Below, piece after piece: positions 7,687-32,965 of a stretch of 32,965 nt of DNA. The DNA is from a virus, in IMG/VR virus record IMGVR_UViG_3300030106_004540, positions 1 to 32,965 of that record. One strand, 5' to 3'. The notes beneath the pieces were generated by a model. That model searched no databases. It saw only the letters and a program-made list of their open reading frames with translations, and had not been told where the DNA came from. Each line of letters begins with the position of its first letter. The stretch's first letter is position 1. Position numbers and translations under genes: made by a program.

Positions 7687-10600
7687 ATGAACAAACTCAC
7701 AAGATGGTTGGTAGAGACTATACTAGCCGAGGCACCAAGAGTCCCAAGAAAAAAGGGACAACATCGAGGTTCCAAATCTCATTCCGATTTATACACGGAC
7801 GAAAATCCAAAAGGAACCATCAAGGGTCTTAAATTTGCTACGGTAAAAGACGCTGAGGCATCAGTGCGTAAAATTAAGTCGAGTGGTCGTTCTCATGCGC
7901 ACAAGATACAAGCCGCTGTGGCTATGGAACAGAGGGCTCGTGAGATGGGAAAGAAATCCCAAGCGGCTGTTTATCGTACATACATAAATAAGATGAAAAA
8001 GAAGACCAAGAAGAAGAATGAGGATATCAACATTCCTGTTAAAATAGGTGATACCATTCTTACAGGAAGATTCAAGAATAAAAAGGTTGTGGTAAAATCA
8101 ATTGATAAAGATGAGCATGGGATGCCAACTATTAACGGTAAAAAGATTACGACATTCAGAGTAATGAAAGAGGGTATAAACGACCCTGGTATATTTAAGG
8201 CTGTATTTTTAGCAGGAGGGCCAGGTAGTGGTAAAACCTACGTAGCAAAAGGATTGTTTGGAATACCAGATAGGATAAATGTATCTCAGACTGGTATGAA
8301 AATGATTAATCAAGATAAGGAACTTAAGTTCTTATTGAAAAAGTTTGGATTTGGCACAGACTTGGATAAGATGCCAGATGAGGTATTCGATGATTTAACA
8401 GGACCTGGTGGAAGTGGATTACGAAAGTTCGCAAAAGAACTTAATAAACAAAGATTGAAGTTATATGTTAAAGGTAGATTAGGTGTTATCGTAGATGGCA
8501 CAGGTCACGACTTCAATAAGATAGCATCCCAAAAAGCAGAATTAGAAGATTTAGGTTACGATACTTATATGGTTTTTGTAAATACTTCTTTAGATGTAGC
8601 ACAAAAGCGTAATCAAGAAAGGGATAGGGTTTTACCAAAAAAGATTGTTAGTGATTCTTGGAAGGATGTCCAAGCCAACCTCGGAAAGTTTCAATCACTT
8701 TTCAGAGGTAACTTTCTTATAGTTGATAATTCAAAGTTTTTAGATGAGGAAGCCGCACAGAAAAAGTTTGAGACTTTAGTAAAAAAAGGAATAAATAATT
8801 TTGTTAAAAAACCTATTAAGAATAAGAATGCAAAGAGTTGGATGAGAAAAGAAAAACTCTTAAGAAAACAAGGTATAAAAGAGGCATTCGCAGTCAGAGG
8901 TAATAAGATAGAAAAATTCATCACTGGTAAAAATCTTAAACATCAAGGTAAAAGGTATAAAGAGATAGAGTTTGAAGTTATTAAAGTAGATAATCCTAAA
9001 GAATTAGTTACACTCAGAATTTTAGCACCTAAAAAATTATTTGGACAAGAGGTACCTGTTAGGTTTCGAACACTTAGAAGAGGGCCTTTTCTAAAAACAG
9101 ATACAAGTAAAACAGAGACCTTTAGTTTTGACGGAACAATCCCATCACCAAGTAGAAAACTCGTCAAGAAGATGAAAAAAAAAGGACATAGCTCAGTCCC
9201 TTATGGCAGCGGTTACGAAAAAATAAAAGAACAAAAACAGATAAAAAAAGTAGTTGGTATATATGGTGGTAGATTTCAACCATTTGGCCCACATCACAAA
9301 AAAACTTACGAGTGGTTAAAGTCAAGGGTAGATGATGCTTATATAACCACATCAAATATCAAACAACCACCAAGACATCCAATGAACTTTAAGGAAAAAG
9401 TTCGTCATATGGTAAAGATGGGTATTCCTAAGAATCGTATAATTCAAGAAAAATCACCCTACGTAGCAAAGAACGTTTTAAAAAAATATGATAAGGATAC
9501 CACCGCCGTTGTTTACATATTTGGTGCAAAAGATGCAGGTAGATTGAAGGGTGGAAAGTATTTTCAAGATTACAAAAAGAATAAGAATGACTTAAAGGGT
9601 TATGAAGAAAACGGGTACGTTCTTACAGCACCACATCAATCGGTGAAAGTAGCTGGTAACGAGGTTAGTGGTACAGTAATGAGACAATTGTTAGGTTCAC
9701 CTAATTACGAAGACGATAGAAAAAAATTGTTTAAACAAGCTTTTGGATATTTTGATAAAGGTATCTATGATATGATGACTAATAAATTCAAAAAATTATT
9801 CGAGAGCATCGATACCTTTTTGATAAGAAATAAATTATCTGAATTATTATCAGAAGCAAGTAACACCGTACTATCACCTACCGATGATGGGCCGCCGACA
9901 TTTCATAGGGGATTTGATGACTATAAAAAGTATTCGAAACAATGGTTAGATGATATGTACGCTGGACAAGGTTGGGAGGTAATTAATTATATCTTATCAA
10001 AGCATGCTATTAATCCAGATTATGATTATACATTAAGTTATAGCACGGTTCCTGCTGTAGCATACGGACACACTCAGAGCGGTGATTATGGTTCGAGATT
10101 TGGTGTAGATGACCCAATCGAATCTTATAAATCTTATATTAACGATGTGGTTCTAAGAAACTTGGGTTATGAATTGATAAAATGGATGGGAATAACCGCT
10201 GACGGTAAATCCGTAACTGGCGTGGAAGTAGAGACACCTGTTGTTGGTGGGGTTGGTAAAGATAATGTGGCAAACACAGAGTTAGAAAAATTAGATTTAA
10301 AAGAGGAAGTTCAATTAATAATAGAGGGTGGTGCGTACGGACATATGAATCACCCATTCGATGATAAAAATCTTAAGTTTTCGGATTTAAAACAGATAAT
10401 TATTTATGGATTAGGTGGGAAACTAGATAGGGAGGACAACGTTACGGAAAAATTAGACGGACAAAACCTAATGATTTCGTGGGTTAATGGTAAATTGGTT
10501 ACTGCTAGAAATAAAGGTCAATTAAAAAATTATGGTTCAACGGCTATGGATACAGCCGGAGTTGCCGCGAAGTTTGCAGGTAGGGGTGATATCAAAAAAG

Positions 10601-11547
10601 CCTTTGTATTTGCTATGAGAGATTTAAGTAAAGCAGTTGGTAAATTGACTGATAAACAAAAAGATAAAGTTTTCGGTAATGGTAAAAGGTGGATGAACTT
10701 AGAGGTTATATATCCAGCATCTGCTAACGTAATAGATTATGATAAATCAGAGATTATCTTTCATGGCACTTTAGAGTATGATGAAAGTGGTAGAGCTATA
10801 GGTCAACCAAAAGATTCTGCTCGTATGTTAGCTGGAATGATAAAACAGGTAAATCAAAATATACAAAAACAATTTAAAATCGGAAAACCGTTATTTTTAA
10901 ATGTCCCAAAATCACAAAATTTTGGCACAAAGAAAAAAACATATTTGGCTAGGTTGGATAAACTTAAAAGACAATATGCCTTAAAAGATAATGATACCCT
11001 ATCATTATATCATCAAAAATTTTGGGAAGAGTTTATATTCAATGCATCTAAACAATATCGTTATAAGATACCGAATCGTATTTTGGTAAACTTGACCAAA
11101 AGGTGGGCTTTTTTAGATAAATCATATTCAGTTCAACAAATGAGAAAAGACATAGATAATGAAAAGTTCTTAGAATGGGCTTTATCATTTGATAAGACCG
11201 ACCACAAAAAATATATCAAAGATAATATGAAACCGTTTGAGGTTTTGTTTTTTGAGGTAGGAGCCGAAATACTTAAGAATATTAGTGGGTTTTTAGTTGC
11301 CTCACCAAAAAAAGCTGTCCAAAAAATTAGAAGAGATGTGATAAATGCAATTAAGACTGTAAGAGGTGGTGGGGATATTAAAAAAATAGAGACGCTAAAA
11401 CATCAACTTAGTAAATTAGAAAAGATTGGGGGACTCTCATCAATCGTACCAACCGAGGGTATTGTATTTAAATATAAAGGGAAGACTTACAAATTTACAG
11501 GCGCATTTGCACCAGTAAATCAAATATTAGGATTATTAAATTTTTAG
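7687..11547 (+). CDS. Multi-domain DUF5872 / P-loop kinase / NMNAT-like / RNA-ligase-like protein with capsid-targeting N-terminus
   Basis: A 1286-residue protein. Residues 1-15 (MNKLTRWLVETILAE, then A16) resemble a T4 capsid-targeting peptide cut after Glu. About 22-113 matches my memory of DUF5872 (HSDLYTDENPKGTIKGL, SHAHKIQAAVAMEQRA). About 114-160 is a small beta module (VKIGDTILTGRFKNKKVVV). About 170-375 is a zeta-toxin/polynucleotide-kinase-like P-loop kinase: Walker A GGPGSGKT at 177-184, D270 in VIVDGTG, lid RNQERDR. About 520-700 is an NMNAT-like nucleotidyltransferase: GIYGGRFQPFGPHH at 524-537 and VSGTVMR at 660-666. About 724-880 is unrecognised. About 881-1286 is RNA-ligase-like: KLDG with K922 as nucleophile, LEVIYP near 1005, EGIVFKY at 1257 and K1269 in YKFTG. 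Candidate gp21 sites fall in linkers: IKE399-A, LSE723-A and IIE880-G. Substrates are unknown; RNA repair or NAD metabolism are the leading options. Confidence 0.8.
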   Translation: MNKLTRWLVETILAEAPRVPRKKGQHRGSKSHSDLYTDENPKGTIKGLKFATVKDAEASVRKIKSSGRSHAHKIQAAVAMEQRAREMGKKSQAAVYRTYINKMKKKTKKKNEDINIPVKIGDTILTGRFKNKKVVVKSIDKDEHGMPTINGKKITTFRVMKEGINDPGIFKAVFLAGGPGSGKTYVAKGLFGIPDRINVSQTGMKMINQDKELKFLLKKFGFGTDLDKMPDEVFDDLTGPGGSGLRKFAKELNKQRLKLYVKGRLGVIVDGTGHDFNKIASQKAELEDLGYDTYMVFVNTSLDVAQKRNQERDRVLPKKIVSDSWKDVQANLGKFQSLFRGNFLIVDNSKFLDEEAAQKKFETLVKKGINNFVKKPIKNKNAKSWMRKEKLLRKQGIKEAFAVRGNKIEKFITGKNLKHQGKRYKEIEFEVIKVDNPKELVTLRILAPKKLFGQEVPVRFRTLRRGPFLKTDTSKTETFSFDGTIPSPSRKLVKKMKKKGHSSVPYGSGYEKIKEQKQIKKVVGIYGGRFQPFGPHHKKTYEWLKSRVDDAYITTSNIKQPPRHPMNFKEKVRHMVKMGIPKNRIIQEKSPYVAKNVLKKYDKDTTAVVYIFGAKDAGRLKGGKYFQDYKKNKNDLKGYEENGYVLTAPHQSVKVAGNEVSGTVMRQLLGSPNYEDDRKKLFKQAFGYFDKGIYDMMTNKFKKLFESIDTFLIRNKLSELLSEASNTVLSPTDDGPPTFHRGFDDYKKYSKQWLDDMYAGQGWEVINYILSKHAINPDYDYTLSYSTVPAVAYGHTQSGDYGSRFGVDDPIESYKSYINDVVLRNLGYELIKWMGITADGKSVTGVEVETPVVGGVGKDNVANTELEKLDLKEEVQLIIEGGAYGHMNHPFDDKNLKFSDLKQIIIYGLGGKLDREDNVTEKLDGQNLMISWVNGKLVTARNKGQLKNYGSTAMDTAGVAAKFAGRGDIKKAFVFAMRDLSKAVGKLTDKQKDKVFGNGKRWMNLEVIYPASANVIDYDKSEIIFHGTLEYDESGRAIGQPKDSARMLAGMIKQVNQNIQKQFKIGKPLFLNVPKSQNFGTKKKTYLARLDKLKRQYALKDNDTLSLYHQKFWEEFIFNASKQYRYKIPNRILVNLTKRWAFLDKSYSVQQMRKDIDNEKFLEWALSFDKTDHKKYIKDNMKPFEVLFFEVGAEILKNISGFLVASPKKAVQKIRRDVINAIKTVRGGGDIKKIETLKHQLSKLEKIGGLSSIVPTEGIVFKYKGKTYKFTGAFAPVNQILGLLNF

Positions 11548-12077: not shown

Positions 12078-12356
12078 ATGTTAGAGCACAATAAATCCTA
12101 CGTAATAAGTGGAGAAAAAATACTCAAGTTATTAGAATTGATTGAGGACTTGAGAGATATTGCAGGTGACTATGCGCACGAGACTGGAAGTGGATATGAA
12201 ATCGAGGATGATTTCGAGAAATTAATTGAGGAAGTCTTGAAATCTGATATTTTTTCGGAGATAGACCTTTGTCAAGTAACAGGTCAGTATACCTTAAATG
12301 ATATAATGGAAAGGGTTGGATTAAAATATTCAACAAATAGTAATGGACAGAAATAA
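12078..12356 (+). CDS. Small acidic protein before terminase, unknown function
   Basis: A 92-residue acidic, helical protein starting on the base after the upstream stop and overlapping the terminase start by 14 bases, so translation is probably coupled on both sides. Visible segments: YVISGEKILKLLELIEDLRD, IEDDFEKLIEEVLKSDIFSE and TLNDIMERVGLKY. No metal site, membrane segment or catalytic motif is present. Position immediately before gp17 makes it a candidate small terminase subunit or packaging accessory, though it is shorter than T4 gp16 (about 164 aa). Function unknown. Confidence 0.6.
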   Translation: MLEHNKSYVISGEKILKLLELIEDLRDIAGDYAHETGSGYEIEDDFEKLIEEVLKSDIFSEIDLCQVTGQYTLNDIMERVGLKYSTNSNGQK

Positions 12357-13926
12357 AAAGGGTCAATTAAAAAGTGTGATAAAGCAGGAGTACGTGAAAT
12401 GTGCTGCCGACCCGGTATATTTCTTAAAAAAGTATTGTGTGATACAACATCCTATAAAAGGTAAGATACCATTTCATTTATATGATTTTCAAGAAAAAAC
12501 AGTTAGTGATTTGGTCACAAATAGATTAAACATAATTTTAAAAGCTAGACAATTAGGTATATCAACTTTAACAGCTGGATACTCTTTATGGATGATGACA
12601 TTTCATCAAGATAAAAATATATTAGTCATAGCTACTAAACAAGAGGTAGCTAAGAACTTGGTAACAAAAGTAAGGGTTATGCATGCTAATTTACCAAGTT
12701 GGTTAAAACAAACTTGCGTTGAGGACAATAAACTTAGTCTAAGATATAATAATGGTTCACAAATAAAAGCGGTATCAAGTGGGGAAGATAGTGGTCGTTC
12801 AGAAGCTCTATCATTATTGATATTGGATGAGGCAGCGTTCATAGAAAAGATTGATGGTATATGGGCAGCGGCATCACAGACCTTATCAACTGGTGGACAA
12901 TGTATAGCTTTATCAACCCCTAATGGTGTTGGTAATTGGTTTCATAGAACGTGGATGGACGCAATGGATGGGTTGAACGATTTTAATTTTACCAAGTTAC
13001 ATTGGACTGCACATCCTGATAGGGGTGAGGATTGGAGAAAAGAGCAGGATAAACTGTTAGGCCCATCGATGGCGGCGCAAGAATGTGATTGTGACTTTAT
13101 TACATCTGGTCAATCCGTGGTTGATGGACTTATCTTAGAGGAATATAGGCAGAAACATTTACAAGAACCAATCGAAAAAAGAGGTGTTGATTCTAATGTT
13201 TGGATATGGGAACCACCAAATTACACGAAAGATTACATAGTGTGCGCGGATGTTAGTAGAGGAGACTCAACGGACTATTCAGCATTCCACATTTTAGATG
13301 TTGAGAGTTTAGAACAAGTGGCTGAGTATAAAGGTAGAATGTCAACAAGAGATTATGGTAATTTACTTGTGAATATATCCACCGAATATAATAATGCATT
13401 ACTTGTTATTGAGAATAACAACATTGGTTGGGCAACTATTCAACAAGTGATTGATAGGGGATATGAAAATCTATTCTATATGAGTAAGGATTTACAAGTT
13501 GTTGATGTTCACAGACAGGTCAACAATAAAATAAATAGAGCGGAAAAAGGATTAGTTCCTGGCTTTACACTTACATCAAAGACAAGACCCTTAGTAATAG
13601 CTAAATTAGAGGAGTTTTTTAGGGAAAAATCCGTAATAGTTCGCTCTCAGCGATTAATTGACGAGTTGTTTGTATTTATATATAATGGAAGTAGAGCCGA
13701 GGCTATGAGAGGATATAATGATGACTTAGTCATGTCGTTATCAATGGGTCTTTGGATAAGAGAGACAGCCCTAAGACTAAGAGCAGAAGGTATAGAATTA
13801 CAAAAAACAGCAATAACAAATATAAATTCACATAAAGGAATTTATACAAACGAAATCCAAAAGAATGATTCTTGGACTATGAAAGTCAACAAACAACAAG
13901 AATCATTAGAGTGGTTAATTAAGTGA
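12343..13926 (+). CDS. 17: Terminase large subunit, T4 gp17-like
   Basis: A 527-residue packaging motor: an ATPase that pumps DNA through the portal and a nuclease that cuts genome units. ATPase motifs: Walker-A-like KARQLGIST at 67-75 (T4 has SRQLGKT), Walker B LLILDEAAF at 158-166 with D162/E163, and the coupling motif STPNG at 191-195. The RNase-H-like nuclease shows VCADVSRGDSTDYSAF with D303, LLVIENNN with E357, and NDDLV at 459-463. Length is near that of T4 gp17 (610 aa) without its extended N-terminus. The ATG lies within the preceding gene, implying coupled translation. The portal gene follows 8 bases later. T4 has gp18 and gp19 between gp17 and gp20; they are absent here. Confidence 0.95.
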   Translation: MDRNKKGQLKSVIKQEYVKCAADPVYFLKKYCVIQHPIKGKIPFHLYDFQEKTVSDLVTNRLNIILKARQLGISTLTAGYSLWMMTFHQDKNILVIATKQEVAKNLVTKVRVMHANLPSWLKQTCVEDNKLSLRYNNGSQIKAVSSGEDSGRSEALSLLILDEAAFIEKIDGIWAAASQTLSTGGQCIALSTPNGVGNWFHRTWMDAMDGLNDFNFTKLHWTAHPDRGEDWRKEQDKLLGPSMAAQECDCDFITSGQSVVDGLILEEYRQKHLQEPIEKRGVDSNVWIWEPPNYTKDYIVCADVSRGDSTDYSAFHILDVESLEQVAEYKGRMSTRDYGNLLVNISTEYNNALLVIENNNIGWATIQQVIDRGYENLFYMSKDLQVVDVHRQVNNKINRAEKGLVPGFTLTSKTRPLVIAKLEEFFREKSVIVRSQRLIDELFVFIYNGSRAEAMRGYNDDLVMSLSMGLWIRETALRLRAEGIELQKTAITNINSHKGIYTNEIQKNDSWTMKVNKQQESLEWLIK

Positions 13927-13934
13927 GGTAAAAA

Positions 13935-15749
13935 ATGGCAGATACAAGTTTATTTGCAAGACTACAAAGATTATTTTCTACAAATGTAATTGTAAGAAAT
14001 GTTGGTGGTAAACAACTAAGAGTGGCTGATACAAGTAGGACACAAGCATATTCTCGTAGTAATTTAGTGGATAGATATCAAAAAATATATGCTGGTGCAG
14101 GTCTAAGTGGGTATTCCGATAGTCTTACCACAAAATCAATGAGATTAAATTTGTTTCAAGATTATGAGGCGATGGATGCTGATGCAATAATATCATCAGC
14201 GCTAGACATTTACTCTGATGAATCAACAATGAAATCCGAGTATGGTGAAGTATTAACCATAAATTCGAGTAATGACCAAATTAAAAAAATCCTCCATAAT
14301 CTTTTTTACGATATATTGAATATAGAATTCAATTTATGGCCTTGGATAAGAAATATGTGTAAGTATGGGGATTTCTTTTTGAAGCTAGAAATAGATGAAA
14401 AATATGGTATAACAAATGTTATACCTTTACCTGTATATGATGTTACGAGATTAGAGGGTTTAGACCCGGAGAATCCTGAGTTTGTCAAGTTTGTAATAGA
14501 AGCAGATAGTCAACCATCTCGATATAAAAAACAAAATTCCTCAACAAAAGAAGAATTAGAAAACTTTCAGGTGGCTCACTTTAGGTTACTCTCCGATTCA
14601 AATTATCTACCTTATGGTAAATCACAGATTGAGGGTGGTAGAAAAATATATAAACAATTAACACTTATGGAAGATGCCATGTTAATTCATCGTATCATGA
14701 GAGCGCCAGAAAAAAGAGTGTTCAAGTTAGATATCGGTAACATACCACCTGCCGAGGTTGACAATTATATGCAACAGGTTATAAACAAAATGAAAAAAAC
14801 ACCTATTATTGATGAGACGACAGGTGATTATAACCTACGATATAATATGCAAAACATCACAGAGGATTTTTTCTTACCCGTTCGTGGTGGAGATAGTGGT
14901 ACGAGTATTGATTCATTACCTGGTCTTACATATGAGGCGACTGAGGATATAGAGTATTTAAAAAATAAATTATTATCATCACTTAGAATACCAAAAGCAT
15001 TTTTAGGATTTGAGGAAAATGTAGGTTCCAAAGCAACTTTAGCGGCAGAAGACGTAAGATTTGCCAGAACAATCGAGAGAATACAAAGAATATCTGTAAG
15101 TGAATTGACTAAGATAGCTATCGTACATTTATACGCACAAGGATATCAAGATAGTGATTTAATTGACTTCGATTTAAAACTAACGAGTCCGTCTACAATT
15201 TATGAACAAGAAAAGATAGAGTTGTGGGATTCAAAGACAAGATTAGCATCATCAATGTTACAGGATGGTTTATTATCATCGGAATGGATATACAAAAATA
15301 TATTTAATTTTACCGATGATGAAATAAAAGAAGAAGACAAGGGTATTGTTGATGATTATAAACAAAAGTTTAGACGTTCTCAGATTGAAAATGAGGGTAA
15401 TGACCCACAAGAGAGTGGTGAAGCACAAGGGACTCCATCAGATATGGCGATGGGTAGAACAGGTCACGAGTTAGATGATAAGGGCGGAGCACCTGAGGGT
15501 GGTTTCGAGGGCGCAGGTAGACCAAAAGAGATACCAAAGTATGGTAAAGATGGTAGCGCAAGAGGTCGTGACCCTTTAGGAAATGTGGATAGGAAAAACG
15601 CCACAAAATCAAATAGGACTTTAGCATTAGCCCACTTTGATAAACTTAAAAAATCTATGAAGTTAGATAATGAGACTAAAATTTTAAATGAGACAACTGA
15701 ATTAGAAAAGGAATATATTGACGAAGTTGATTCACTTACAAATGAATAA
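13935..15749 (+). CDS. 20: Portal vertex protein, T4 gp20-like
   Basis: A 604-residue protein with GAGGT upstream of the ATG, directly after the terminase. It would form the dodecameric ring at the unique head vertex: nucleation point of head assembly, DNA channel, and docking site for terminase and then the neck. Supporting segments are typical of T4-like portals: LFQDYEAMDADAIISSALDI near residue 80, WPWIRNMCKYGDFFLKLEI near 135, PLPVYDVTRLEG, MEDAMLIHRIMRAPEKRVF near 250, and LLSSLRIPKAFLGFEE near 350 followed by an ATLAAEDVRFARTIERIQ helix. The C-terminal ~100 residues are polar and Gly-rich. A possible promoter motif and the prohead core genes follow. Confidence 0.93.
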   Translation: MADTSLFARLQRLFSTNVIVRNVGGKQLRVADTSRTQAYSRSNLVDRYQKIYAGAGLSGYSDSLTTKSMRLNLFQDYEAMDADAIISSALDIYSDESTMKSEYGEVLTINSSNDQIKKILHNLFYDILNIEFNLWPWIRNMCKYGDFFLKLEIDEKYGITNVIPLPVYDVTRLEGLDPENPEFVKFVIEADSQPSRYKKQNSSTKEELENFQVAHFRLLSDSNYLPYGKSQIEGGRKIYKQLTLMEDAMLIHRIMRAPEKRVFKLDIGNIPPAEVDNYMQQVINKMKKTPIIDETTGDYNLRYNMQNITEDFFLPVRGGDSGTSIDSLPGLTYEATEDIEYLKNKLLSSLRIPKAFLGFEENVGSKATLAAEDVRFARTIERIQRISVSELTKIAIVHLYAQGYQDSDLIDFDLKLTSPSTIYEQEKIELWDSKTRLASSMLQDGLLSSEWIYKNIFNFTDDEIKEEDKGIVDDYKQKFRRSQIENEGNDPQESGEAQGTPSDMAMGRTGHELDDKGGAPEGGFEGAGRPKEIPKYGKDGSARGRDPLGNVDRKNATKSNRTLALAHFDKLKKSMKLDNETKILNETTELEKEYIDEVDSLTNE

Positions 15750-17497: not shown

Positions 17498-18109
17498 GTG
17501 AATAAGCAACTAATAGTAGATTATCTACCATTTGAAATAGAACCAGACCAAATTAACGAATCCATAAAAGAAAATAATGGAAAGTTAATAGTCAAGGGTG
17601 TATTACAAAGGGCTGAATCTAAAAATCAGAACGGAAGAGTATACCCAAAAGATATTTTGATGAGAGAAGCTAAAAAGTATACTGAGGAATTTATAGACCA
17701 AAGAAGAGCCATGGGTGAGTTAGACCATCCAGAGTCTTCAGTAGTAAATCTACAGAACGTCTCCCATAACGTAAAGAAGATGCATTTTGAAGGTGATAAC
17801 CTAATGGGCGAGGTAGAGGTGTTAGGCACACCAAGTGGTAATATATTAAAAGAATTATTTAAATCGGGTATTAAGTTAGGTATATCCTCAAGAGGTATGG
17901 GTTCGGTTGAGACCGTAAATGAGAATGGACACGAGGCCCAAGAGGTACAACCTGATTTTGAACTTATAGCTTTTGATTTTGTTTCAAATCCATCAACACA
18001 CGGTGCTTTTATGTATCCTGTAAATGAAGGAGTCGAAAAAAAAGAGGGACGAACTTGCGGTGACTATTGTAAGGTTGAGACAATCATCAACGATATAATG
18101 AGGGGTTAG
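17498..18109 (+). CDS. 21: Prohead core protease, T4 gp21-like
   Basis: A 203-residue protease that would sit in the prohead core and cleave scaffold, capsid and internal proteins after Glu. It starts at GTG 17498 with AAGGAG at 17486-17491. Signatures of T4 gp21: GVLQRAESKNQNGRVYPK near 34-51, MGELDHPES at 72-80 supplying the catalytic His77, and KLGISSRGMGSVE at 126-138 supplying the catalytic Ser (130/131). Length is close to T4 gp21 (212 aa). Two motifs suggest self-processing: INE21-S near the N-terminus and VNE177-G near the C-terminus. The latter matches the repeated VNE motifs in neighbouring genes. The next ATG abuts the stop codon. Confidence 0.92.
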   Translation: MNKQLIVDYLPFEIEPDQINESIKENNGKLIVKGVLQRAESKNQNGRVYPKDILMREAKKYTEEFIDQRRAMGELDHPESSVVNLQNVSHNVKKMHFEGDNLMGEVEVLGTPSGNILKELFKSGIKLGISSRGMGSVETVNENGHEAQEVQPDFELIAFDFVSNPSTHGAFMYPVNEGVEKKEGRTCGDYCKVETIINDIMRG

Positions 18110-18391
18110 ATGAAAGACTCTATAAAAATGTGGAGAAAGTGGAGAGATTGGCGACTCGAAGAGGATAAAATACCGATGGGTTTTGCTGGTTACAAAAACT
18201 ATTTTGATATTATAGAAAAAGCCATAGATAAGGTAGAAAGAAATTTTAAAACACTAATCAAAGATTTAGCTCGTGATAAAGATGGTGATTATAAAAAAGA
18301 GGTCACAGAACTTCAACGTCTATATAAAAGAAACTTAATAGAACTTAAAATAAAGTTTGCCGACTTTAAGAGAAAAAACACCGATGATTAA
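18110..18391 (+). CDS. Small basic helical protein, unknown function
   Basis: A 93-residue basic protein starting directly after the protease stop and overlapping the next gene by 8 bases (ATGATTAA). The N-terminus is unusually Trp-rich (KMWRKWRDWRLEEDK), with LEE-D as a weak candidate cleavage site; the rest is helical with probable coiled coil (IIEKAIDKVERNFKTLIKDL). No known family is recognised. Being the first gene after gp21 in a coupled series suggests expression with head-core proteins. Function unknown. Confidence 0.6.
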   Translation: MKDSIKMWRKWRDWRLEEDKIPMGFAGYKNYFDIIEKAIDKVERNFKTLIKDLARDKDGDYKKEVTELQRLYKRNLIELKIKFADFKRKNTDD

Positions 18392-18701
18392 ACTTAAAAA
18401 AATATTATCGGAGGCATATGTTTGGGATAGGAAGTTTGGAGAACCTTTACCAACCTTAAAAACAATTATGGGTAAAGTAGAAGAGGGGCCAGAAGAACAG
18501 AGACCAGCTGATAAAGAGGTGCAAAGAATTGTAAAGGCTGAAGCTAAACTGCGTGAGAGAATGCTTAAGTTAGAACAGATTTTTTTAAGAGATGCACGAC
18601 CTGAGAATGTAAAATTAGCTAAAGATATCAAAAAAGTTTACAAAGACACGGTTACAAAGTTTATGAGAGAGATGATTAAACTAAGAAAGAAATTAAAATG
18701 A
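18384..18701 (+). CDS. Putative internal head protein with capsid-targeting-like peptide (paralogue of next gene)
   Basis: 105 residues from ATG 18384, overlapping the previous stop by 8 bases; an upstream TTG at 18357 would hide the conserved N-terminus and is not preferred. It begins MIKLKKILSE-A, close in design to the T4 internal-protein leader MKTYQEFIAE-A cut by gp21 after Glu10. Right after it comes YVWDRKFGEPLPTL, shared with the next gene (YWTGRKFGEALPTL), so the two are paralogous at their N-termini. The remainder is a highly charged helix (RIVKAEAKLRERMLKLEQIF) likely to coil. No enzyme motif. Inferred to be a core component or a packaged internal protein. Confidence 0.7.
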   Translation: MIKLKKILSEAYVWDRKFGEPLPTLKTIMGKVEEGPEEQRPADKEVQRIVKAEAKLRERMLKLEQIFLRDARPENVKLAKDIKKVYKDTVTKFMREMIKLRKKLK

Positions 18702-19378
18702 TTAAGTTAAAAAACATAATGAACGAAAATTATTGGACTGGTCGTAAGTTTGGTGAAGCATTACCGACCTTAAGATTAGAACAAGATGAGCCGGAACATT
18801 TCGGTGGTGGTGAAAACATAAAGATTTTAGATTATCAGACAAAACACTTTGATATATGTCGTTCGGCCGTAATACTTTATCAAAGATTAGTAAAAGATGT
18901 CGATAACACCGATGCACAAGAATTAATCTTAAGCTCAGCAAAACAACTTGACCACCTTTTCGAAATGGAAAAACAGGTTGTTAGGGGTGAGGAGTTAGAC
19001 CATGACCCAATTGATATGAGTGTTGAGATTGTAAACATTGTATCTTATCAGTTAGGTCGTATTGGTGGTATGATTAATGATGACTTTGAGAGAGATACAA
19101 ACTTTCTTAAACTACACGTGATGGAAATCATAAACAGAAAAGATAGTATTAAGATAGCTGATAAACAAGAAGAAGAACCTGTTGATGAAAACTTAAACTC
19201 TCATGAGAAAATGCTTTCTAAAGCATTTAAAACGACAGACAAGACAGAAATAAAAGGTATCGATAGATTAATCGGTATGTCTCAGATTGGTGATGTCCTA
19301 AAGATGCAAAAAAGGAATCCAAAAAATTTTAAAAAAATGATAAATAGAATCGGAAAAATGGGTGACATCAGTAAGTAA
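18698..19378 (+). CDS. Putative internal head protein, paralogous N-terminus
   Basis: 226 residues, start overlapping the preceding stop (ATGA). N-terminus MIKLKNIMNE-N matches the capsid-targeting layout with Asn rather than Ala after the cut, followed by YWTGRKFGEALPTL shared with the gene before. The middle is mostly helical (KHFDICRSAVILYQRLVKD, AKQLDHLFEMEKQVV), the C-terminal part basic (MQKRNPKNFKKMINRIGKM). No catalytic motif is recognised. The end overlaps the DUF3008-like gene by 17 bases. Likely made with the prohead core; whether it is injected is unknown. Confidence 0.7.
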   Translation: MIKLKNIMNENYWTGRKFGEALPTLRLEQDEPEHFGGGENIKILDYQTKHFDICRSAVILYQRLVKDVDNTDAQELILSSAKQLDHLFEMEKQVVRGEELDHDPIDMSVEIVNIVSYQLGRIGGMINDDFERDTNFLKLHVMEIINRKDSIKIADKQEEEPVDENLNSHEKMLSKAFKTTDKTEIKGIDRLIGMSQIGDVLKMQKRNPKNFKKMINRIGKMGDISK

Positions 19379-20357
19379 AGCACAACAAAGATTTATGGGA
19401 TTGGTTCACGCTTACAAAAAGGGTGAGGTTCCAGCTAGTAAAGTCAGTCAGGCAGTAAAGGACGCAGCCAAATCAATGAAGAAGAAGTCTACTAAAAAAA
19501 TGGCTTCCACAAAACATAAGGGTCTACCTAATAAGGTAAGAAGTGAGAACATGAATGAGGATGGACATACAGACGTAGCATCAGCTGAGAGAAAACTCAA
19601 ACTGATTATGAAAGATGCTATGGATACACTCAATGCTTTACGTAGTTTATCTAACGAGGACTCACTACCAAGTTGGTGGACTGATAAGATTACACTAGCT
19701 AAAGATTATGTTGGTAAGTCTCGTGATTACATTATGAATCCAGCTGAATCCGTAAATGAAGAATCAAAAACAATAAAATCTATTCAGAATCTAGCAGATA
19801 AAAATAAGTATGGTACTGTATCAGGAACTAGGATGAATGGTAAGACTGCTAGAGAGATTATAGCTATTTATAATCATCCAAAGATGAAAAGTTTTCGTGG
19901 TAAAATGGATAAACTAAAATCACATGAACTAATGGATTTGACTATTCGTTTACCAAAAATATTAGGTATCAAGGTTGAATCCGTAAATGAAAAAACTATA
20001 TCTATCGGTGGTGAAGATTTAATGAAATACTTGATGAAAAGGTTTAAGATGAGTAAGAGTCAAGCAATCGCTTCAATGAAAAAACACAAAATGGATATGT
20101 CTTTTCTAAAAAAAGAATCCGTAAATGAGGCCGTAGAACCAAGAGGTAATATAAAAAAAGTTCTTGATGTGGCAAAAAACAAACAAGCTAAAAAGATTGG
20201 TGGTACTCTTGTAGATGGAACTACTGCAAATATGATGACTCAAGTTTGGAATAAGGTAAACGACTCAAGTAAAGAAAAAATGAATAAGATGAATACAAAA
20301 CAACTTATCAATTTAATTCTAAGAATGTGGAAAGCAATGGGGACACCAAGAGTATGA
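19362..20357 (+). CDS. DUF3008-like protein with repeated ESVNE linkers, possible prohead polyprotein
   Basis: 331 residues from GTG 19362, inside the previous gene's end. Residues ~4-60 (SKAQQRFMGLVHAYKKGEVP, ... STKHKGLPNKV) fit DUF3008 as I remember it, a small basic domain of unknown function. The rest is divided by near-identical linkers: ENMNE-D near 66, then ESVNE-E, ESVNE-K and ESVNE-A, with the 13-mer AATCCGTAAATGA repeated at 19747, 19979 and 20117. Segments between them are small, basic and helical, including KMSKSQAIASMKKHKMDMS and a last module ending TKQLINLILRMWKAMG. The Glu-ended linkers, also found in gp21's own C-terminus (VNE-G), suggest cleavage into about five small proteins. 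Functions of the pieces are unknown; small nucleic-acid-binding domains are one possibility. Confidence 0.7.
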   Translation: MTSVSKAQQRFMGLVHAYKKGEVPASKVSQAVKDAAKSMKKKSTKKMASTKHKGLPNKVRSENMNEDGHTDVASAERKLKLIMKDAMDTLNALRSLSNEDSLPSWWTDKITLAKDYVGKSRDYIMNPAESVNEESKTIKSIQNLADKNKYGTVSGTRMNGKTAREIIAIYNHPKMKSFRGKMDKLKSHELMDLTIRLPKILGIKVESVNEKTISIGGEDLMKYLMKRFKMSKSQAIASMKKHKMDMSFLKKESVNEAVEPRGNIKKVLDVAKNKQAKKIGGTLVDGTTANMMTQVWNKVNDSSKEKMNKMNTKQLINLILRMWKAMGTPRV

Positions 20358-20644
20358 TTAAATTAAAAAATATATTATCAGAAGCAAAAGAGTTACCACA
20401 AAAAGATATTGATTTCATAGCAAGAATGACTGACCAAAATAATCATAATACTGCAAGGCTTCAGTTAGCTCAACTAATGAGAAACAGAAAATTAGAGAAG
20501 GGTTACCGAGCAATTGAGACTTTAGCCAATATGTTTAATCAAATGAATGAATTGATGAAAGCTAGAGAAAAATTAGACAAGATGTTATTTACACAAGCTA
20601 AAAGAATGTATAGTAATTATGATGATATCTATGGAGCTTTTTAG
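20354..20644 (+). CDS. Putative internal head protein with MIKLKNILSE leader
   Basis: 96 residues from ATG 20354, which overlaps the previous stop (ATGA); an upstream in-frame start at 20327 would bury the leader. N-terminus MIKLKNILSE-A is a near copy of that at 18384 and ends in a gp21-type site. The mature part is helical and basic (KDIDFIARMTDQNNHNTARL, RAIETLANMFNQMNELMKA) ending YSNYDDIYGAF. No family recognised. The coupled position in the run from 18384 to 21371 and the shared leader suggest the same destination, the head interior. Confidence 0.7.
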   Translation: MIKLKNILSEAKELPQKDIDFIARMTDQNNHNTARLQLAQLMRNRKLEKGYRAIETLANMFNQMNELMKAREKLDKMLFTQAKRMYSNYDDIYGAF

Positions 20645-21030
20645 TGATTAAATTAAAAGACCTATTGTCAGAAGAATTGAACCATCCCGTGTATGGAAGT
20701 CATAAAACAAACTTTCTTGTGAAGAGACCATTTGACGTTTTTATTAAGACTGGTCGCTTGGAACCTACAGGTATGTATTCAACACCTGGACCTGGTGGTA
20801 GTAAAGAGCTTTTTAGAGATAAGGGTATGAAAGTAAAAGTAAAAAAAGGGATGCAGATTAGTAATTTACCAGGCGGTATTTTTCTAATAGATAGACAAAG
20901 AAAAAAAGCTTTTGAAATTATCCATCAAAAAGGCGGAACAGGCAGAAAAAATTATTTACAAAAGGTAGCACTTGCTGATATAGAAAACTATGTGGATTAC
21001 GTCACGTGGAAAAATTGGTTAAAGAGATAA
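20644..21030 (+). CDS. Putative internal head protein with KLKDLLSE leader
   Basis: 128 residues from GTG 20644, sharing one base with the previous TAG. Leader MIKLKDLLSE-E repeats the pattern, with Glu after the cut. The body differs from its neighbours: a compact alpha/beta fold seems likely, with VYGSHKTNFLVKRPFDVFIK, a Gly/Pro loop (TGMYSTPGPGGSKELF), a KVKVKKGM strand and a C-terminal helix (ADIENYVDYVTWKNWLK). No known domain is recognised. If the leader works as in T4 internal proteins, this is a good candidate for a folded effector delivered with the genome; that is inference. Confidence 0.7.
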   Translation: MIKLKDLLSEELNHPVYGSHKTNFLVKRPFDVFIKTGRLEPTGMYSTPGPGGSKELFRDKGMKVKVKKGMQISNLPGGIFLIDRQRKKAFEIIHQKGGTGRKNYLQKVALADIENYVDYVTWKNWLKR

Positions 21031-22427: not shown

Positions 22428-23537
22428 ATGGATGATTTACTAAAAGAAGCCATTGCGGATGCAAAAGCAGTTCGTGAAACAGCTCTTGAAAATGCTAAGA
22501 TTGCATTAGAGGAAGCTTTTACACCTCGTTTACAATCCATGTTATCAAAAAAGATTCAATCTGAAATTGATGTTGAAGAAGGCGCTCATGAAGATGAAGA
22601 AGAAGATGTCGATGAAAGAATGCATGATGAAGAAGAAGATGACGTAGATGAAAAGATGAGACTAAAAGCTGACGATGAAGACCCAACTGATAAAGATTCT
22701 AACGAAGCAATGCATGATGAAGATGAGGATGACGTAGAAGAAAGAATGCACGGTGAAGAAGAGGATGATGAAGTTGAGGAGAGAATGCATGATGAGGATG
22801 ATGATGAAGTTGAAGAAGGCGCACATGAGGAAGATGAAGATGATGTTGATGAGGAACTCGACCTTGAAAGCGTTCTAAAAGAACTTGAAGCAGACTTAGA
22901 TGAAGACGTTGAAGAAGGCGCTCATGAAGATGAAGAAGAAGAAAAAGTTGATGAAAATGATGTTTCTTCAGGTATCGGAGCAGGTGACAACAAAGTCGAC
23001 AAAAAAGCTGGTGATTCAACTGACATCGGTAACGCAGACAAAGCTAAGTTTACGGAATCAGCTGATGAGTTAGACGAAGACATTGACCTTGATGAAGTGT
23101 TAAAAGCTTTAACAGAGGAAGATGAAGAAGAAGTCGCTGAAGAAGTTGATGAAGTCAAACAGCTACAATCTGAGTTAGATGAGCATCGCGAAGTTGTCAA
23201 GTATCTACGTGGCAAATTAAATGAAGTTAACTTGCTTAATGCAAAATTATTATTCACAAACAAACTTTTCCGTGGATTTGGTTTATCCAATGAGCAGAAG
23301 ATGAAAGTTGTGGAAACTTTTGATAGAGCAGCTAACTTAAGAGAGGTAAAATTAGTTTACTCAACATTAGTTGAGTCTTTTCAGACTAAGAAACCTCAAG
23401 AAATCAAAGAATCCAAGGGTTCAGCTTCAAAAGCTGTAGCTTCAACAAAATCTGAAAAACAAGAAATTATTTCTGAAGGTTCAGAGTTGAGAGACAGATT
23501 TAAGAAGTTAGCCGGGATTACTAAATTTAACAGTTAA
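22428..23537 (+). CDS. 22: Prohead scaffold/core protein, T4 gp22-like
   Basis: 369 residues; AGGAG at 22416-22420, 7 bases before ATG. It would form the temporary core around which the capsid assembles. N-terminus MDDLLKE-A carries a gp21-type site, then a helix (DAKAVRETALENAKIALEEAF). Residues ~48-184 are an extreme Asp/Glu region built from repeats such as MHDEEEDDVDEKM and GAHEDEEEE. The C-terminal third is the conserved part: ELDEHREVVKYLRGKLNEV, KLLFTNKLFRGFGLSNEQKM, VVETFDRAANLREVKLVYST, then IISE-GSELRDRFKKLAGI, another site. T4 gp22 is fully degraded by gp21, fitting these sites. Identification rests on position before gp23, composition and the C-terminal region. The acidic repeat is longer than in T4 gp22 (269 aa). 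Confidence 0.88.
   Translation: MDDLLKEAIADAKAVRETALENAKIALEEAFTPRLQSMLSKKIQSEIDVEEGAHEDEEEDVDERMHDEEEDDVDEKMRLKADDEDPTDKDSNEAMHDEDEDDVEERMHGEEEDDEVEERMHDEDDDEVEEGAHEEDEDDVDEELDLESVLKELEADLDEDVEEGAHEDEEEEKVDENDVSSGIGAGDNKVDKKAGDSTDIGNADKAKFTESADELDEDIDLDEVLKALTEEDEEEVAEEVDEVKQLQSELDEHREVVKYLRGKLNEVNLLNAKLLFTNKLFRGFGLSNEQKMKVVETFDRAANLREVKLVYSTLVESFQTKKPQEIKESKGSASKAVASTKSEKQEIISEGSELRDRFKKLAGITKFNS
22572..22946 (+). repeat. Degenerate acidic coding repeats in scaffold gene
   Basis: Imperfect repeats of roughly 40-60 bases encode units of the form (G/R/A)-(A/M)-H-(D/E/G)-(D/E)n-V-(D/E)-E. The string GTTGAAGAAGGCGCTCATGA occurs at both ends of the region (about 22572 and 22909). Each unit carries one His in an acidic run. 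Confidence 0.7.
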
Positions 23538-23560: not shown

Positions 23561-25204
23561 ATGTCAAATAAATTAGGCACTATCGAAAAGTTGATGGATG
23601 GATATAATCCAGTCCGTCAACGAATGGAAGAAACTAAAGGTCTAGTCAAAAAGTGGGAATCCACAGGACTTTTAGAAGGACTCCAAGATGAGCAGAGAAC
23701 TCATGGTATGGCAGTGCTACTTGAGAACCAAGCACGTCAGTTAATTGACGAAGCATCTCAAGCAGGAACCAATAGTGATTCAGAACAATGGTCAGGCGTT
23801 GCTTTACCATTGGTCAGAAAAATCTTTGGTGAGCTAGCCGCACAAGAGTTCGTTTCTGTTCAGCCAATGAACCTACCATCAGGTCTTATTTTCTATCTTG
23901 ATTTCAAGTATGGAAGTGCACAAGGTGGATTTACAAGTGGTAACGATGTATTCGGTCTCACTTCAGGTTCTGGCGACCCAACATCTGGACTATATGGTGC
24001 AGGTCGTTTCGCTTACTCAGCAAATGATACAGCATCAGCAGCTCAGTCAAAAGCAGCATCTGCAGCAGATGGTAACTATGCTACTGGTTCAGTAACTTTC
24101 GACGATATCGACTTTGAACCAGACCTATCCGCATCAATGGCGGCAGGTCCTGATGCTGATAATGGATTAATGAAAGTTGTAGTTTCTACAGCAGCTTTAA
24201 GTGGTTTCGACCCTGAAGGTGTTAGAGCATTCAACATTTCTGGTTCGAACTTTGATGAGTTCTTCCCAGCACATACAAAATTGAATGCAGCTGAAACTGA
24301 AATAACATTTATCGTTAGAAAAGACAGAGCTCAAACACTTGTTGGTAACGTCGTGGTTGATTATCATAAGCAACCAACCGATACATCAAGAGGTGACTTT
24401 GAAGCTACTGCTAGTGGTACAGGCGCAGAATCAGATGCAGGTATACCTGAAATCGATATAGCGATGCGTTCAATTCCTATTGTCGCTAAGACAAGAAAGT
24501 TGAAAGCTGTATGGACACCTGAGTTGGCGCAAGACCTCAATGCATACCATAGTGTAGACGCTGAAGCAGAATTGACTGCTTTACTATCTGAGTACGTATC
24601 AATGGAAATTGATTTAGAAATCTTAGATATGTTAAGAAGCAATGCAACTGCTAAGACAGAAAACTATTCTGCAAAGGTTGGATTTGAGTTTAACTCGGCT
24701 ACAAGCCTGTTTGAAGAAACTTCAGCAAACTCAAATGCATACACAAAAGGTGAGTGGTTCCAGACTCTTGGTAACAAGATACAGTCTGTTTCCAACGCAA
24801 TTCATCAAAAGACCCTACGTGGTGGAGCTAACTTCATCGTTGTAAGTCCTGAAACTGCTACTATCTTAGAATCAATTCCTGGATATGCAACAACTTCAGA
24901 TGGCGATTCAGCTGGTGGAAACTACGCTATGGGTGTTCAGAGAGCTGGTCTCTTGAATAACAGATATACTGTTTACAAGAACCCATATCAGTTCGAGAAC
25001 GTAATCCTTGTTGGTTTCAGAGGTTCAAACTTCTTAGAAACTGGCGCGGTGTACGCACCTTACGTCCCAATGATTATGACACCATTAGTATACGACCCAA
25101 CCAACTTTACTCCACGTAAAGGTGTGATGACTCGTTACGCTAAGAAGATGGTACGTCCTGAATTCTACGGATTAGTAAGAATAGCAGATATTGATAAAGT
25201 CTAA
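23561..25204 (+). CDS. 23: Major capsid protein, T4 gp23-like
   Basis: 547 residues (T4 gp23: 521) forming the head hexamers, HK97 fold by family. N-terminal propeptide ends LIDE64-A65, almost exactly where T4 gp23 is cut by gp21 (FLTE65-A66). The mature start is followed by WSGVALPLVRKIFGELAAQE and VSVQPMNLPSGLIFYLDFKYG (T4: VQPMNSPTGQVF), the strongest match. Later parts: DIAMRSIPIVAKTRKLKAVW, TPELAQDLNAYHSVDAEAEL, FIVVSPETATILESI, and the C-terminal TPLVYDPTNFTPRKGVMTRY with KKMVRPEFYGLVRIADI. Codons look more optimised than in neighbours (more GTC, AAC and TTC), as expected for the most abundant virion protein. A strong terminator follows. No separate gp24 vertex gene is seen. Confidence 0.96.
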   Translation: MSNKLGTIEKLMDGYNPVRQRMEETKGLVKKWESTGLLEGLQDEQRTHGMAVLLENQARQLIDEASQAGTNSDSEQWSGVALPLVRKIFGELAAQEFVSVQPMNLPSGLIFYLDFKYGSAQGGFTSGNDVFGLTSGSGDPTSGLYGAGRFAYSANDTASAAQSKAASAADGNYATGSVTFDDIDFEPDLSASMAAGPDADNGLMKVVVSTAALSGFDPEGVRAFNISGSNFDEFFPAHTKLNAAETEITFIVRKDRAQTLVGNVVVDYHKQPTDTSRGDFEATASGTGAESDAGIPEIDIAMRSIPIVAKTRKLKAVWTPELAQDLNAYHSVDAEAELTALLSEYVSMEIDLEILDMLRSNATAKTENYSAKVGFEFNSATSLFEETSANSNAYTKGEWFQTLGNKIQSVSNAIHQKTLRGGANFIVVSPETATILESIPGYATTSDGDSAGGNYAMGVQRAGLLNNRYTVYKNPYQFENVILVGFRGSNFLETGAVYAPYVPMIMTPLVYDPTNFTPRKGVMTRYAKKMVRPEFYGLVRIADIDKV

Positions 25205-29521: not shown

Positions 29522-29815
29522 ATGAGAAAAAGACATTGGAAAAATAGAAAGAATCGTCCGTGTCCTGACTGTGGGAAGATGTTAACCTACACTCGTAAAG
29601 ATTCTTTCGATAGAGCGGTTGGTAATAATAGTGTTTGTAAATCTTGTGCACAACAAGATAGAAAATTTACATTAGAGACTATAGAAAAAATGAAACAACC
29701 AAAAACGGTTGAACATAAAAAGAATATTTCTAAATCAATTACAAATTGGTGGGAAGATAGAAAACAACAAGAAGTAGAGTATGGCTTTATTAGACAGCAA
29801 ACAACTAAATCCTAA
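29522..29815 (+). CDS. Small zinc-ribbon protein with NUMOD3-like motif, possible homing-endonuclease remnant
   Basis: 97 basic residues without a clear ribosome-binding site. CPDC at 14-17 and CKSC at 39-42 form a four-Cys zinc ribbon; after it FTLETIEKMKQPKTVEHKKN and ISKSITNWWEDRK resemble a NUMOD3 DNA-binding motif (pattern SxETxxKM...S/T-x-E-x-K-x-x-I-S). Such pairs normally sit in GIY-YIG or HNH homing endonucleases, but no nuclease motif is present. It lies in a gap between two fibre genes and overlaps the next by 35 bases, as an inserted mobile remnant might. Alternatives: a small late transcription or DNA-binding regulator. The reading as a real gene is moderately supported by the Cys spacing. 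Confidence 0.55.
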   Translation: MRKRHWKNRKNRPCPDCGKMLTYTRKDSFDRAVGNNSVCKSCAQQDRKFTLETIEKMKQPKTVEHKKNISKSITNWWEDRKQQEVEYGFIRQQTTKS

Positions 29816-32800: not shown

Positions 32801-32965
32801 TTTTGTATCAGATGAACACATTGACCACACAGGAGTTTCAATTACAGCAGGAGACGGATTAACAGGTGGTGGAACGATAGCTGCTAATAGAACTATAAAT
32901 GTAGTGGGTGGAGACGGAATTACTGCAAACGCAAATGATATTGCGATTACAGCAGCTCAAACAAC
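29781..32965 (+). CDS. Long repetitive tail fibre protein (3' end outside window)
   Basis: Open from ATG 29781 (MALLDSKQLNPKLTGSFILS) to the right edge without a stop: 1061 complete codons. Weak ribosome-binding site, start inside the preceding ORF. Composition is Gly/Ser/Thr/Ala-rich with the fibre-type strings TASGDISGSATSTGSFGQL and ITASGDISSSATITANEF. Two SSAQIAADISGSLSTAA-type modules occur near 30500 and 30700, then five copies of a 112-residue unit (HDSLAxFVxxEH ... GLTGGGTIAS ... VNANDVAIGQ ... GSGNISGSLGN ... QALDALAFSGS). No S74 domain is reached. It would be an extended trimeric fibre for host binding. Whether the end carries a chaperone or adhesin tip is outside this window. Confidence 0.85.
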   Translation, partial: MALLDSKQLNPKLTGSFILSGSTQTLIGSSDFQGSVTASGDISGSATSTGSFGQLEIGNGGDIVLTEDQRIFFEADKATFIESHASDTFRVVVNNRQMFLLDEDTGNRAVFGNGTKVFIGENNNFTPQASLHIAGDIFLSGSNGNVTASGNISSSATITSENSIVKNDLTVGGNLDIADTIFHTGDSNTKIRFPDVDTISFHTSGEERLRISAGGHITASGDISSSATITANEFNGIFNGALSSSAQIAADISGSLSTAAVVGLGANILSGSAQISADISGSFTPASASFSTRVTTAESELGNTLLSSSAQIADDVSGSLSTAAIVGLGANLVSASAMVDHDSTTNFVANEHINHTSVTFTAGDGLTGGGTIASNRTFAVGAGTGVSVNTNDVAIGQDVATTANVKFNHITGSGNISGSLGNVLGFKSGSFQALDALAFSGSVQQATQAIINHDSLAGFVSDEHIDHSGVTITAGAGLTGGGTIESTRTLAVGAGTGVTVNANDVAIGQAVATDSDVEFASVTTTGNITAQGDVIAQNYIVSSSVTHMTSSVRSGSTRSGDTPADDTHFFTGSVFISGSSTDITNTMTASLASVFLQNNGHISSSLGTIKGFSAIDGTTITGTTFTGTTFTGVSGSFSENLGVNTTTPAEALEVVGSISSSASGSFLNVDVTDNVGITGVLTLPNIANVSASIASAVAGGDDLGNHTATQDLDMDGNDIFDVQHISSSGNISGSLGDILGYKSGSFQQLDAGVVSASSVQATNLTGLVGTATQGTIDHDSLANFVANEHVDHSGVTITAGAGLTGGGTIASTRTLAVGAGTGVTVNANDVAIGQAVATTSNVKFNHITGSGNLSGSLGNVLGFNSGSFQALDALAFSGSIQQATQAFIDHDSLASFVADEHVAHGDVTITAGAGLTGGGTIASTRTLAVGAGTGVTVNANDVAIGQDVATTANVKFNHITGSGNISGSLGNILGFNSGSFQAIDALALSGSVQQATQALINHDSLAGFVSDEHIDHTGVSITAGDGLTGGGTIAANRTINVVGGDGITANANDIAITAAQT
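30801..32965 (+). repeat. 336-bp (112-aa) coding repeats in the long fibre gene
   Basis: Units begin at 30801, 31137, 32112, 32448 and 32784, each with CACGA; spacing is exactly 336 bases for 30801-31137, 32112-32448 and 32448-32784. The second unit is split: its first half runs to about 31340, and its second-half sequence (SSGNISGSLGDILGYKSGSF) returns near 31950, leaving about 640 bases of different fibre sequence inside. The fifth unit is cut by the window end. Confidence 0.85.

Follow-up and report, generated by a model that had tools for sequence, protein, structure and literature searches.

Why would a phage join a kinase, a nucleotidyltransferase and a ligase-like domain in one very long chain, behind a short leader of the kind that takes proteins into the T4 head? 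The question is raised by an open reading frame (ORF) in the virus record IMGVR_UViG_3300030106_004540, a 35,949-base entry of IMG/VR of which we analysed positions 1-32965 (the window). The initial annotation reported a single ORF of 1286 amino acids whose leader ends in LAE↓A (arrows mark predicted cuts or the corresponding positions) and which combines a P-loop kinase with HIGH/NMNAT-like and ligase-like (KxDG) domains. All of this holds: GGPGSGKT is at residues 177-184, GGRFQPF at 527-533, VSGTVMR at 660-666, KLDG at 922-925 and EGIVFKY at 1257-1263. It also treated the chain as one giant enzyme, which the evidence does not support. We consider it quite likely that the ORF, from a T4-like marine phage, encodes a polyprotein of head cargo that the prohead protease cuts. 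We think of a precursor of about six products because internal phi-x-E sites (a hydrophobic residue, any residue, then Glu) lie at the module borders and because the modules are permuted in relatives.

Predicted cut sites and products

The T4 prohead protease gp21 recognizes a short L/I-X-E motif and cleaves directly after its Glu; a leader of ten residues at the N-terminus is enough to bring a protein into the T4 head (PMC9026906). The window ORF has six motifs of the form phi-x-E↓[AGS]: LAE↓A (Glu 15), MKE↓G (162), IKE↓A (399), LFE↓S (706), LSE↓A (723) and IIE↓G (880). All six are between domains, with none in the 1012 domain-interior residues. Counted as [ILM]xE[AGS], the ORF alone has 6 motifs against 1.9 expected (p about 0.01).

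The first of these motifs closes the leader MNKLTRWLVETILAE↓A. Conservation of this peptide in homologues was the check that the initial annotation had set for it, and a phi-x-E closes the leader in 31 of 31 distinct complete N-termini of relatives. The capsid-targeting-type pattern is therefore real, although it is not confined to the N-terminus: the chain has about seven junctions of this kind, and the end of the leader is one of them.

The sequences show the domains, the sites, module exchange at these sites, a protease gene and the pattern of the leader; from them we infer cutting, packaging, injection and enzymatic function as follows. A single N-terminal capsid-targeting leader would carry the chain into the prohead core, where the phage's own S77 (gp21-type) protease would cleave after phi-x-E at about seven sites. 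The cuts would yield the basic peptide M1-M2, an enzyme resembling polynucleotide kinase, module M4, an NMNAT/cytidylyltransferase-like enzyme, module D4 and an enzyme resembling ligases (Table 1), with predicted masses of about 17, 27, 13, 22, 17.5 and 46 kDa. The products would remain in the head and be injected with the DNA.

Table 1. The polyprotein ORF, its predicted products and the head genes discussed in the text (positions are those of the window).
Feature	Position	Strand	Basis or remarks
Polyprotein ORF	7687..11547	+	ATG to TAG, 1286 amino acids
Capsid-targeting-type leader MNKLTRWLVETILAE↓, residues 1-15	7687..7731	+	phi-x-E pattern in relatives
Predicted product 1, residues 16-162: basic M1 (APRVPRKKG..., phrog_727-like) and KOW-like M2	7732..8172	+	Profile matches
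Predicted product 2, residues 163-399: P-loop polynucleotide-kinase-like module, VMKE↓G before it	8173..8883	+	Pfam AAA_33/Zeta_toxin, Foldseek
Predicted product 3, residues 400-515: basic M4 and short '...SVPYGSGYEKIKE' element, GIKE↓A before it	8884..9231	+	Family comparison
Predicted product 4, residues 516-706: NMNAT/cytidylyltransferase-like module	9232..9804	+	PF01467, phrog_395, PDB NMNATs
Predicted excised 17-residue linker, residues 707-723, from LFE↓S to LSE↓A	9805..9855	+	Flanking sites
Predicted product 5, residues 724-880: acidic module D4	9856..10326	+	Module comparison
Predicted product 6, residues 881-1286: covalent-nucleotidyltransferase/RNA-ligase-like, long helical insert, IIE↓G before it	10327..11544	+	Motifs
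Terminase large subunit and T4-type portal	12343..15749	+	Just downstream of the polyprotein ORF; late head-gene context
gp21-type prohead protease (peptidase S77), predicted processing enzyme	17498..18109	+	Pfam S77 4e-28; phrog_207 6e-55
gp23-type major capsid protein	23561..25204	+	LIDE↓A at residue 64, internal reference for protease specificity

Exchange of modules among relatives

In IMG/VR we found relatives of the ORF at 80 loci; their complete chains are about 900 to 1660 amino acids long. A scan of genome contigs gave six contigs of metagenome-assembled genomes. The modules of the window ORF recur in the relatives in permuted order, have been lost or inserted, or occur as stand-alone genes with their own leaders of about 10 residues, and the break falls at the Glu. 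M1, first in the window ORF, comes after the kinase at L017, L018 and L029. In the window chain the kinase is internal, whereas it leads the chain in L031 and L036 and is a separate gene in L069, L070, L073 and L077. M4 and the '...SVPYGSGYEKIKE' element move independently of each other, and in L086 a homologue of the ligase-like module stands alone behind its own leader.

Upstream of a module start the sequences are unrelated, yet a Glu usually precedes the module directly, and a hydrophobic residue stands two positions ahead of this Glu. In the case of the kinase, a first set had phi-x-E in 16/16 divergent contexts; a second, kinase-anchored search, which partly overlaps the first set, had Glu at P1 in 89/89 contexts and phi-x-E↓G/A in all 38 divergent ones. 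Many of these are stand-alone kinase genes that have a T4-like leader as their whole N-terminus (MIKLMDILLE↓G, MKTFHELQE↓G and MIVKTFEQFITE↓G), and the cultured phages HTVC008M and Melnitz have the kinase leaders MIPFILKE↓G and MKTFAELQE↓G. The Glu pattern precedes the ligase-like module in 13 of 17 cases.

Two further comparisons concern the sites in general. BLAST homology breakpoints between members of the family are independent of our assignment of module starts; they fall within 6 residues of a site 23% of the time, compared with 7.7% when circularly shifted (the maximum in 1000 shifts was 11.8%). In a census of 51 family sequences against their composition, domain bodies held 13 motifs where 57 were expected and linkers held 150 where 46 were expected. 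We rejected chance occurrence of the motifs at the family level on the breakpoints, the kinase contexts and this census.

Several relatives carry an extra module that the window ORF does not have. One member matches the Pfam family AAT, of the N-terminal nucleophile (Ntn) hydrolases, at 4e-6; a comparison with PDB sequences gave no match. Ntn hydrolases require an N-terminal nucleophile. The candidate nucleophile Cys is the first residue of the module, with E↓C in 50/50 contexts and phi-x-E↓Cys in 14/14 divergent ones, so a cut after this Glu would free the N-terminal nucleophile. A stand-alone homologue in Chryseobacterium phage MA9V-2 begins MTSADNNAFINE↓C (L095:5965-6789). The Ntn-hydrolase-like (AAT/C45) module occurs at L030, L038-L042, L077 and L190-L222, and the Cys is right after phi-x-E in every copy examined. 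For the relatives with this module, the Glu before the Cys could instead reflect autocatalytic processing without the prohead protease, as Ntn hydrolases frequently self-process and the PurF propeptide has a Glu-Cys end. We find this rather improbable, given that the same phi-x-E stands before the kinase, the ligase and M1, unrelated modules that have no self-processing.

The closest alternative for the whole chain is a conventional polyvalent protein, in which only the leader is trimmed and the packaged multidomain chain acts as one molecule. Polyvalent proteins, too, are large chains of shuffled effector modules that are believed to enter along with the DNA (Iyer et al. 2017, PMC5512222); they are virion-embedded and multidomain (PMC5512222, PMC9503650), and multidomain chaining alone could explain the fusion. 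Iyer et al. already drew the analogy to polyproteins, with release by embedded peptidases (PMC5512222). In the window ORF, however, Pfam scans found no embedded peptidase, the prohead protease apparently acts on the chain in trans, and the set of domains differs. The phi-x-E motif is also rare inside domains and enriched between them, breakpoints coincide with the sites, and Glu precedes the kinase and the Ntn Cys without exception in the 89 and 50 contexts given above. An uncut polyvalent protein is accordingly doubtful to us, and we favor a polyprotein.

Some other chains are worth recording here. The largest candidate polyprotein that we saw, a chain of 1956 amino acids (L177:1-5868), contains a kinase module, DUF5661 and about 20 phi-x-E sites. 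L061:506-1357, L081:434-1303, L054 and L069 share a module of about 285 residues (EPKFxSVHxxSSF...VFHVGxAE...LSTFTxVDKGEKLAKG) that has no Pfam or isolate-phage match and resembles ADP-ribosyltransferases, by eye only.

Identity and possible functions of the modules

The kinase module matched Zeta_toxin in Pfam scans (4.5e-7 and 1e-8, the best Pfam match), AAA_33 (2.6e-6) and phrog_505 (1e-5). We searched an AlphaFold model of residues 163-880 with Foldseek, and the first match was the Clostridium thermocellum polynucleotide kinase (CthPnkp) 4gp6, at E 4e-7 and a target template modelling (TM) score of 0.72. Judged from this model, the kinase is polynucleotide-kinase-like, with its fold and Walker A closest to Pnkp. 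It might instead be of the zeta-toxin type and act on UDP-sugars or cell-wall precursors and not on RNA. The Pfam result points that way, as do the zeta structures 1gvn and 3q8x (E 4e-6 to 1e-5) and the proposal that zeta kinases fused to MuF act on peptidoglycan precursors (PMC5512222). CthPnkp nevertheless came first and fits better, since the zeta structures have target TM scores of 0.46-0.49, and a ligase-like module is in the same chain. We regard a zeta-type kinase as unlikely.

In the NMN module, GGRFQPF and VSGTVMR are inside a match to Pfam CTP_transf_like (9.5e-5; PF01467 6.6e-6). The module also matches phrog_395 (2.7e-6) and, by profile, the archaeal NMNATs 1f9a and 4yp5 (6e-5 to 3e-4). 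We assign it on these matches to the HIGH-type nucleotidyltransferases. The initial annotation had compared the chain to NadR, which also has a kinase and an NMNAT-like domain in one chain. In that case the two domains would restore NAD after NAD-depleting defenses, a rival that concerns function only. The NMNAT matches, with a kinase in the same chain, are in line with this, and NAD synthesis enzymes are known from phages (PMC9503650). The analogy turned out to be weak: the kinase is nearest to a polynucleotide kinase, the best 50 kinase structure matches include no NadR entry, and the first His of HxGH is replaced. The two modules are not obligatorily linked, being non-adjacent or on different genes in several relatives. 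NAD salvage thus seems improbable.

The ligase-like module has a helical insert of about 220 residues ahead of EGIVF. K922, D924, G925, R941, E1006, E1257 and K1269 are invariant among 17 diverse relatives, and the motifs are invariant in 39 relatives. They cover the elements expected of an ATP-dependent RNA ligase (Rnl1/Rnl2): KxDG, motif III/IIIa, EGxV and the motif V lysine. Variation of the ligase and kinase active-site residues had been named in the initial annotation as an argument against these enzymes; the motif residues are conserved in the family. The Pfam match to RNA_ligase is below threshold (E 0.039). A Foldseek search with the AlphaFold model, which has a predicted local distance difference test (pLDDT) score of 70, gave a best E of 0.2, with T4 Rnl1 in first place and Rnl2 also near the top. 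We therefore call this module a predicted ligase by its motifs.

The basic modules M1, M2 and M4 are small. The acidic D4 had no Pfam or PHROG match and its model has a pLDDT below 50; no known fold or family was found for M1 or D4.

Because the Pnkp-like kinase and the ligase-like domain share a chain, we favor heal-and-seal RNA repair as the function, though only tentatively. Early in infection the kinase and ligase would heal and seal RNA such as tRNA after its breakage by host defense nucleases, and the nucleotidyltransferase would act on some nucleotide substrate. As in the T4 Pnkp/Rnl1 and bacterial Pnkp/Rnl systems, the window has a polynucleotide-kinase-like and a KxDG ligase-like domain in one phage. 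It differs from these systems in that we found no 3'-phosphatase in the chain, in the long helical insert and lack of a significant ligase profile match, and in being predicted to be packaged in the head.

Head genes and virion evidence

The window contains a T4-type late gene block with a gp17-type terminase, a gp20 portal, an S77 prohead protease and a gp23 capsid protein. Two small ORFs separate the polyprotein ORF from the terminase, whose nearest named relatives are from Microcystis phage Mel-JY01 (55%) and Flavobacterium phage immuto (53%). The S77 protease keeps H85 and S140 of T4. The predicted cut in the capsid protein has a counterpart in T4 gp23, LTE↓A at 65. Searches of the window for tRNAs and with Rfam gave no match.

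Just before gp23, where a scaffold gene would be, is an acidic ORF with many sites (22428-23537). This bears on another explanation, that the polyprotein is a core or scaffold protein which the protease shreds to clear the head, leaving the domains vestigial. T4 gp22, gp67 and gp68 are fragmented in this way and mostly exit the head (PMC9026906). However, the acidic ORF already stands where a scaffold gene is expected, the kinase and the NMNAT-like and ligase-like modules have invariant catalytic motifs, and the sites avoid domain interiors. A shredded scaffold is very improbable next to a cargo polyprotein.

Virion mass spectrometry of S-CREM2 and S-SM1 found cyanophage cytidylyltransferases (PMC10665884, PMC3037559). 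In S-CREM2 this is ORF154, which belongs to phrog_395 and has the leader MKNFSSFLTE↓A, and in S-SM1 it is T4-GC190. S-CREM2 ORF137, also detected in virions, is related to phrog_727 and is immediately upstream of terL.

In Agrobacterium phage Atu_ph07 (L084), gp53 and gp54 are adjacent, have the leaders MKWNDLNE↓A and MRWEQLNE↓N, and are in a gene cluster rich in virion proteins (gp53 is within the virion-gene cluster of coding sequences 31-76). gp53 has a region that is ADP-ribosyltransferase-like, by eye, followed by EVTE↓G and the same kinase module.

Other genes of the window have similar features. Four small ORFs on the plus strand (18357-18701, 18698-19378, 20327-20644 and 20644-21030) start with the near-identical leaders MIKLKKILSE, MIKLKNIMNE, MIKLKNILSE and MIKLKDLLSE and continue with unrelated sequence; they are probable individual capsid-targeted internal proteins. 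At 19362-20357 (+) is a 331-residue DUF3008 protein with four 'VNE/MNE' junctions between segments of about 40-100 residues, which is possibly another polyprotein of modules packaged in the head, smaller than the first. A very long ORF of at least 1061 amino acids (29781-32963, +) extends past the end of the window.

Evidence against a cargo polyprotein

Several observations weigh against our interpretation. The motif excess in the ORF alone drops to p 0.11 when V and F are permitted at P3, and the site count in this one ORF is only suggestive. Two junctions of the window ORF fit the motif poorly: KNE↓D between M1 and M2 has no hydrophobic P3, and IKE↓Q at 515/516, the start of the NMNAT-like module, is the least certain site. 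Release of the ligase is not universal, given one clade (L030, L036, L066, L067, L071 and L074) in which the Glu before it is replaced (ELLLM↓GGAYGHM; LLLM↓GG or LLLC↓GG); the replacement suggests that the ligase and the preceding module stay joined there. The relatives share common ancestry, so that the counts are not independent and the p-values should not be taken literally. Despite this kinship, different modules in different contexts agree on Glu as the predicted cut point, and the shuffling of modules speaks strongly for these points.

Two of the enzyme assignments also have difficulties. The NMN module has GPHH in place of HxGH (HKGH in the archaeal enzyme), so that the first His is replaced, with SGTxxR conserved. 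For the ligase-like module, an hhalign comparison to T4 Rnl2 gave E 0.27 and a PDB sequence profile search found no significant match. In addition, S-CREM2 and S-SM1 are distant relatives only, and their virion detections support the class of protein and do not bear directly on the window protein. In S-CREM2 there is no clean separation by leader, as several virion-detected hypothetical proteins are without one and a few undetected proteins have a chance motif.

Comparison with known head proteins

The T4 internal proteins IPI-III and Alt share with the window ORF a short leader ending in phi-x-E, a late head-gene context, a gp21-type protease and mostly basic cargo. The leader of IPII/IPIII, MKTYQEFIAE↓A, is comparable to the LAE↓A leader of the window. 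T4 has one cargo per gene and one leader for each, whereas the window ORF appears to have many enzymes under one leader, split by internal sites. The ejection proteins of phiKZ and SPN3US are likewise packaged in the head and cut after Glu (S/A-x-E) by a relative of gp21, sometimes at several sites, and the extra sites reported lie in propeptides (PMC5694885); in the window ORF the sites are between domains. In the open-access literature, with subscription journals outside the search, we found no report of a T4-type prohead protease releasing several enzymes from one precursor.

Implications for T4-like marine phages

Extended to the family, we think the prohead protease of T4-like marine phages probably acts as a polyprotein processor. 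One leader would import a recombinable string of enzymes, and the maturation cut would release them and, in some members, free the N-terminal Cys of an Ntn module. The result would be an injected anti-defense kit with modules swapped at the cut sites.

If this is true, the proteolysis that matures the capsid also serves bacterial viruses as a means of releasing proteins from a polyprotein, which would account for the loading of many different effectors by T4-like phages with a single targeting signal. With the phi-x-E junction as a simple sequence rule, proteins injected from the head could be found and the 'hypothetical' giant ORFs of marine phages parsed. The junction also predicts exact N-termini to seek in virion proteomes, and some such proteomes are already available. 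The cargo modules would be candidate early anti-defense or host-takeover enzymes of abundant marine viruses.

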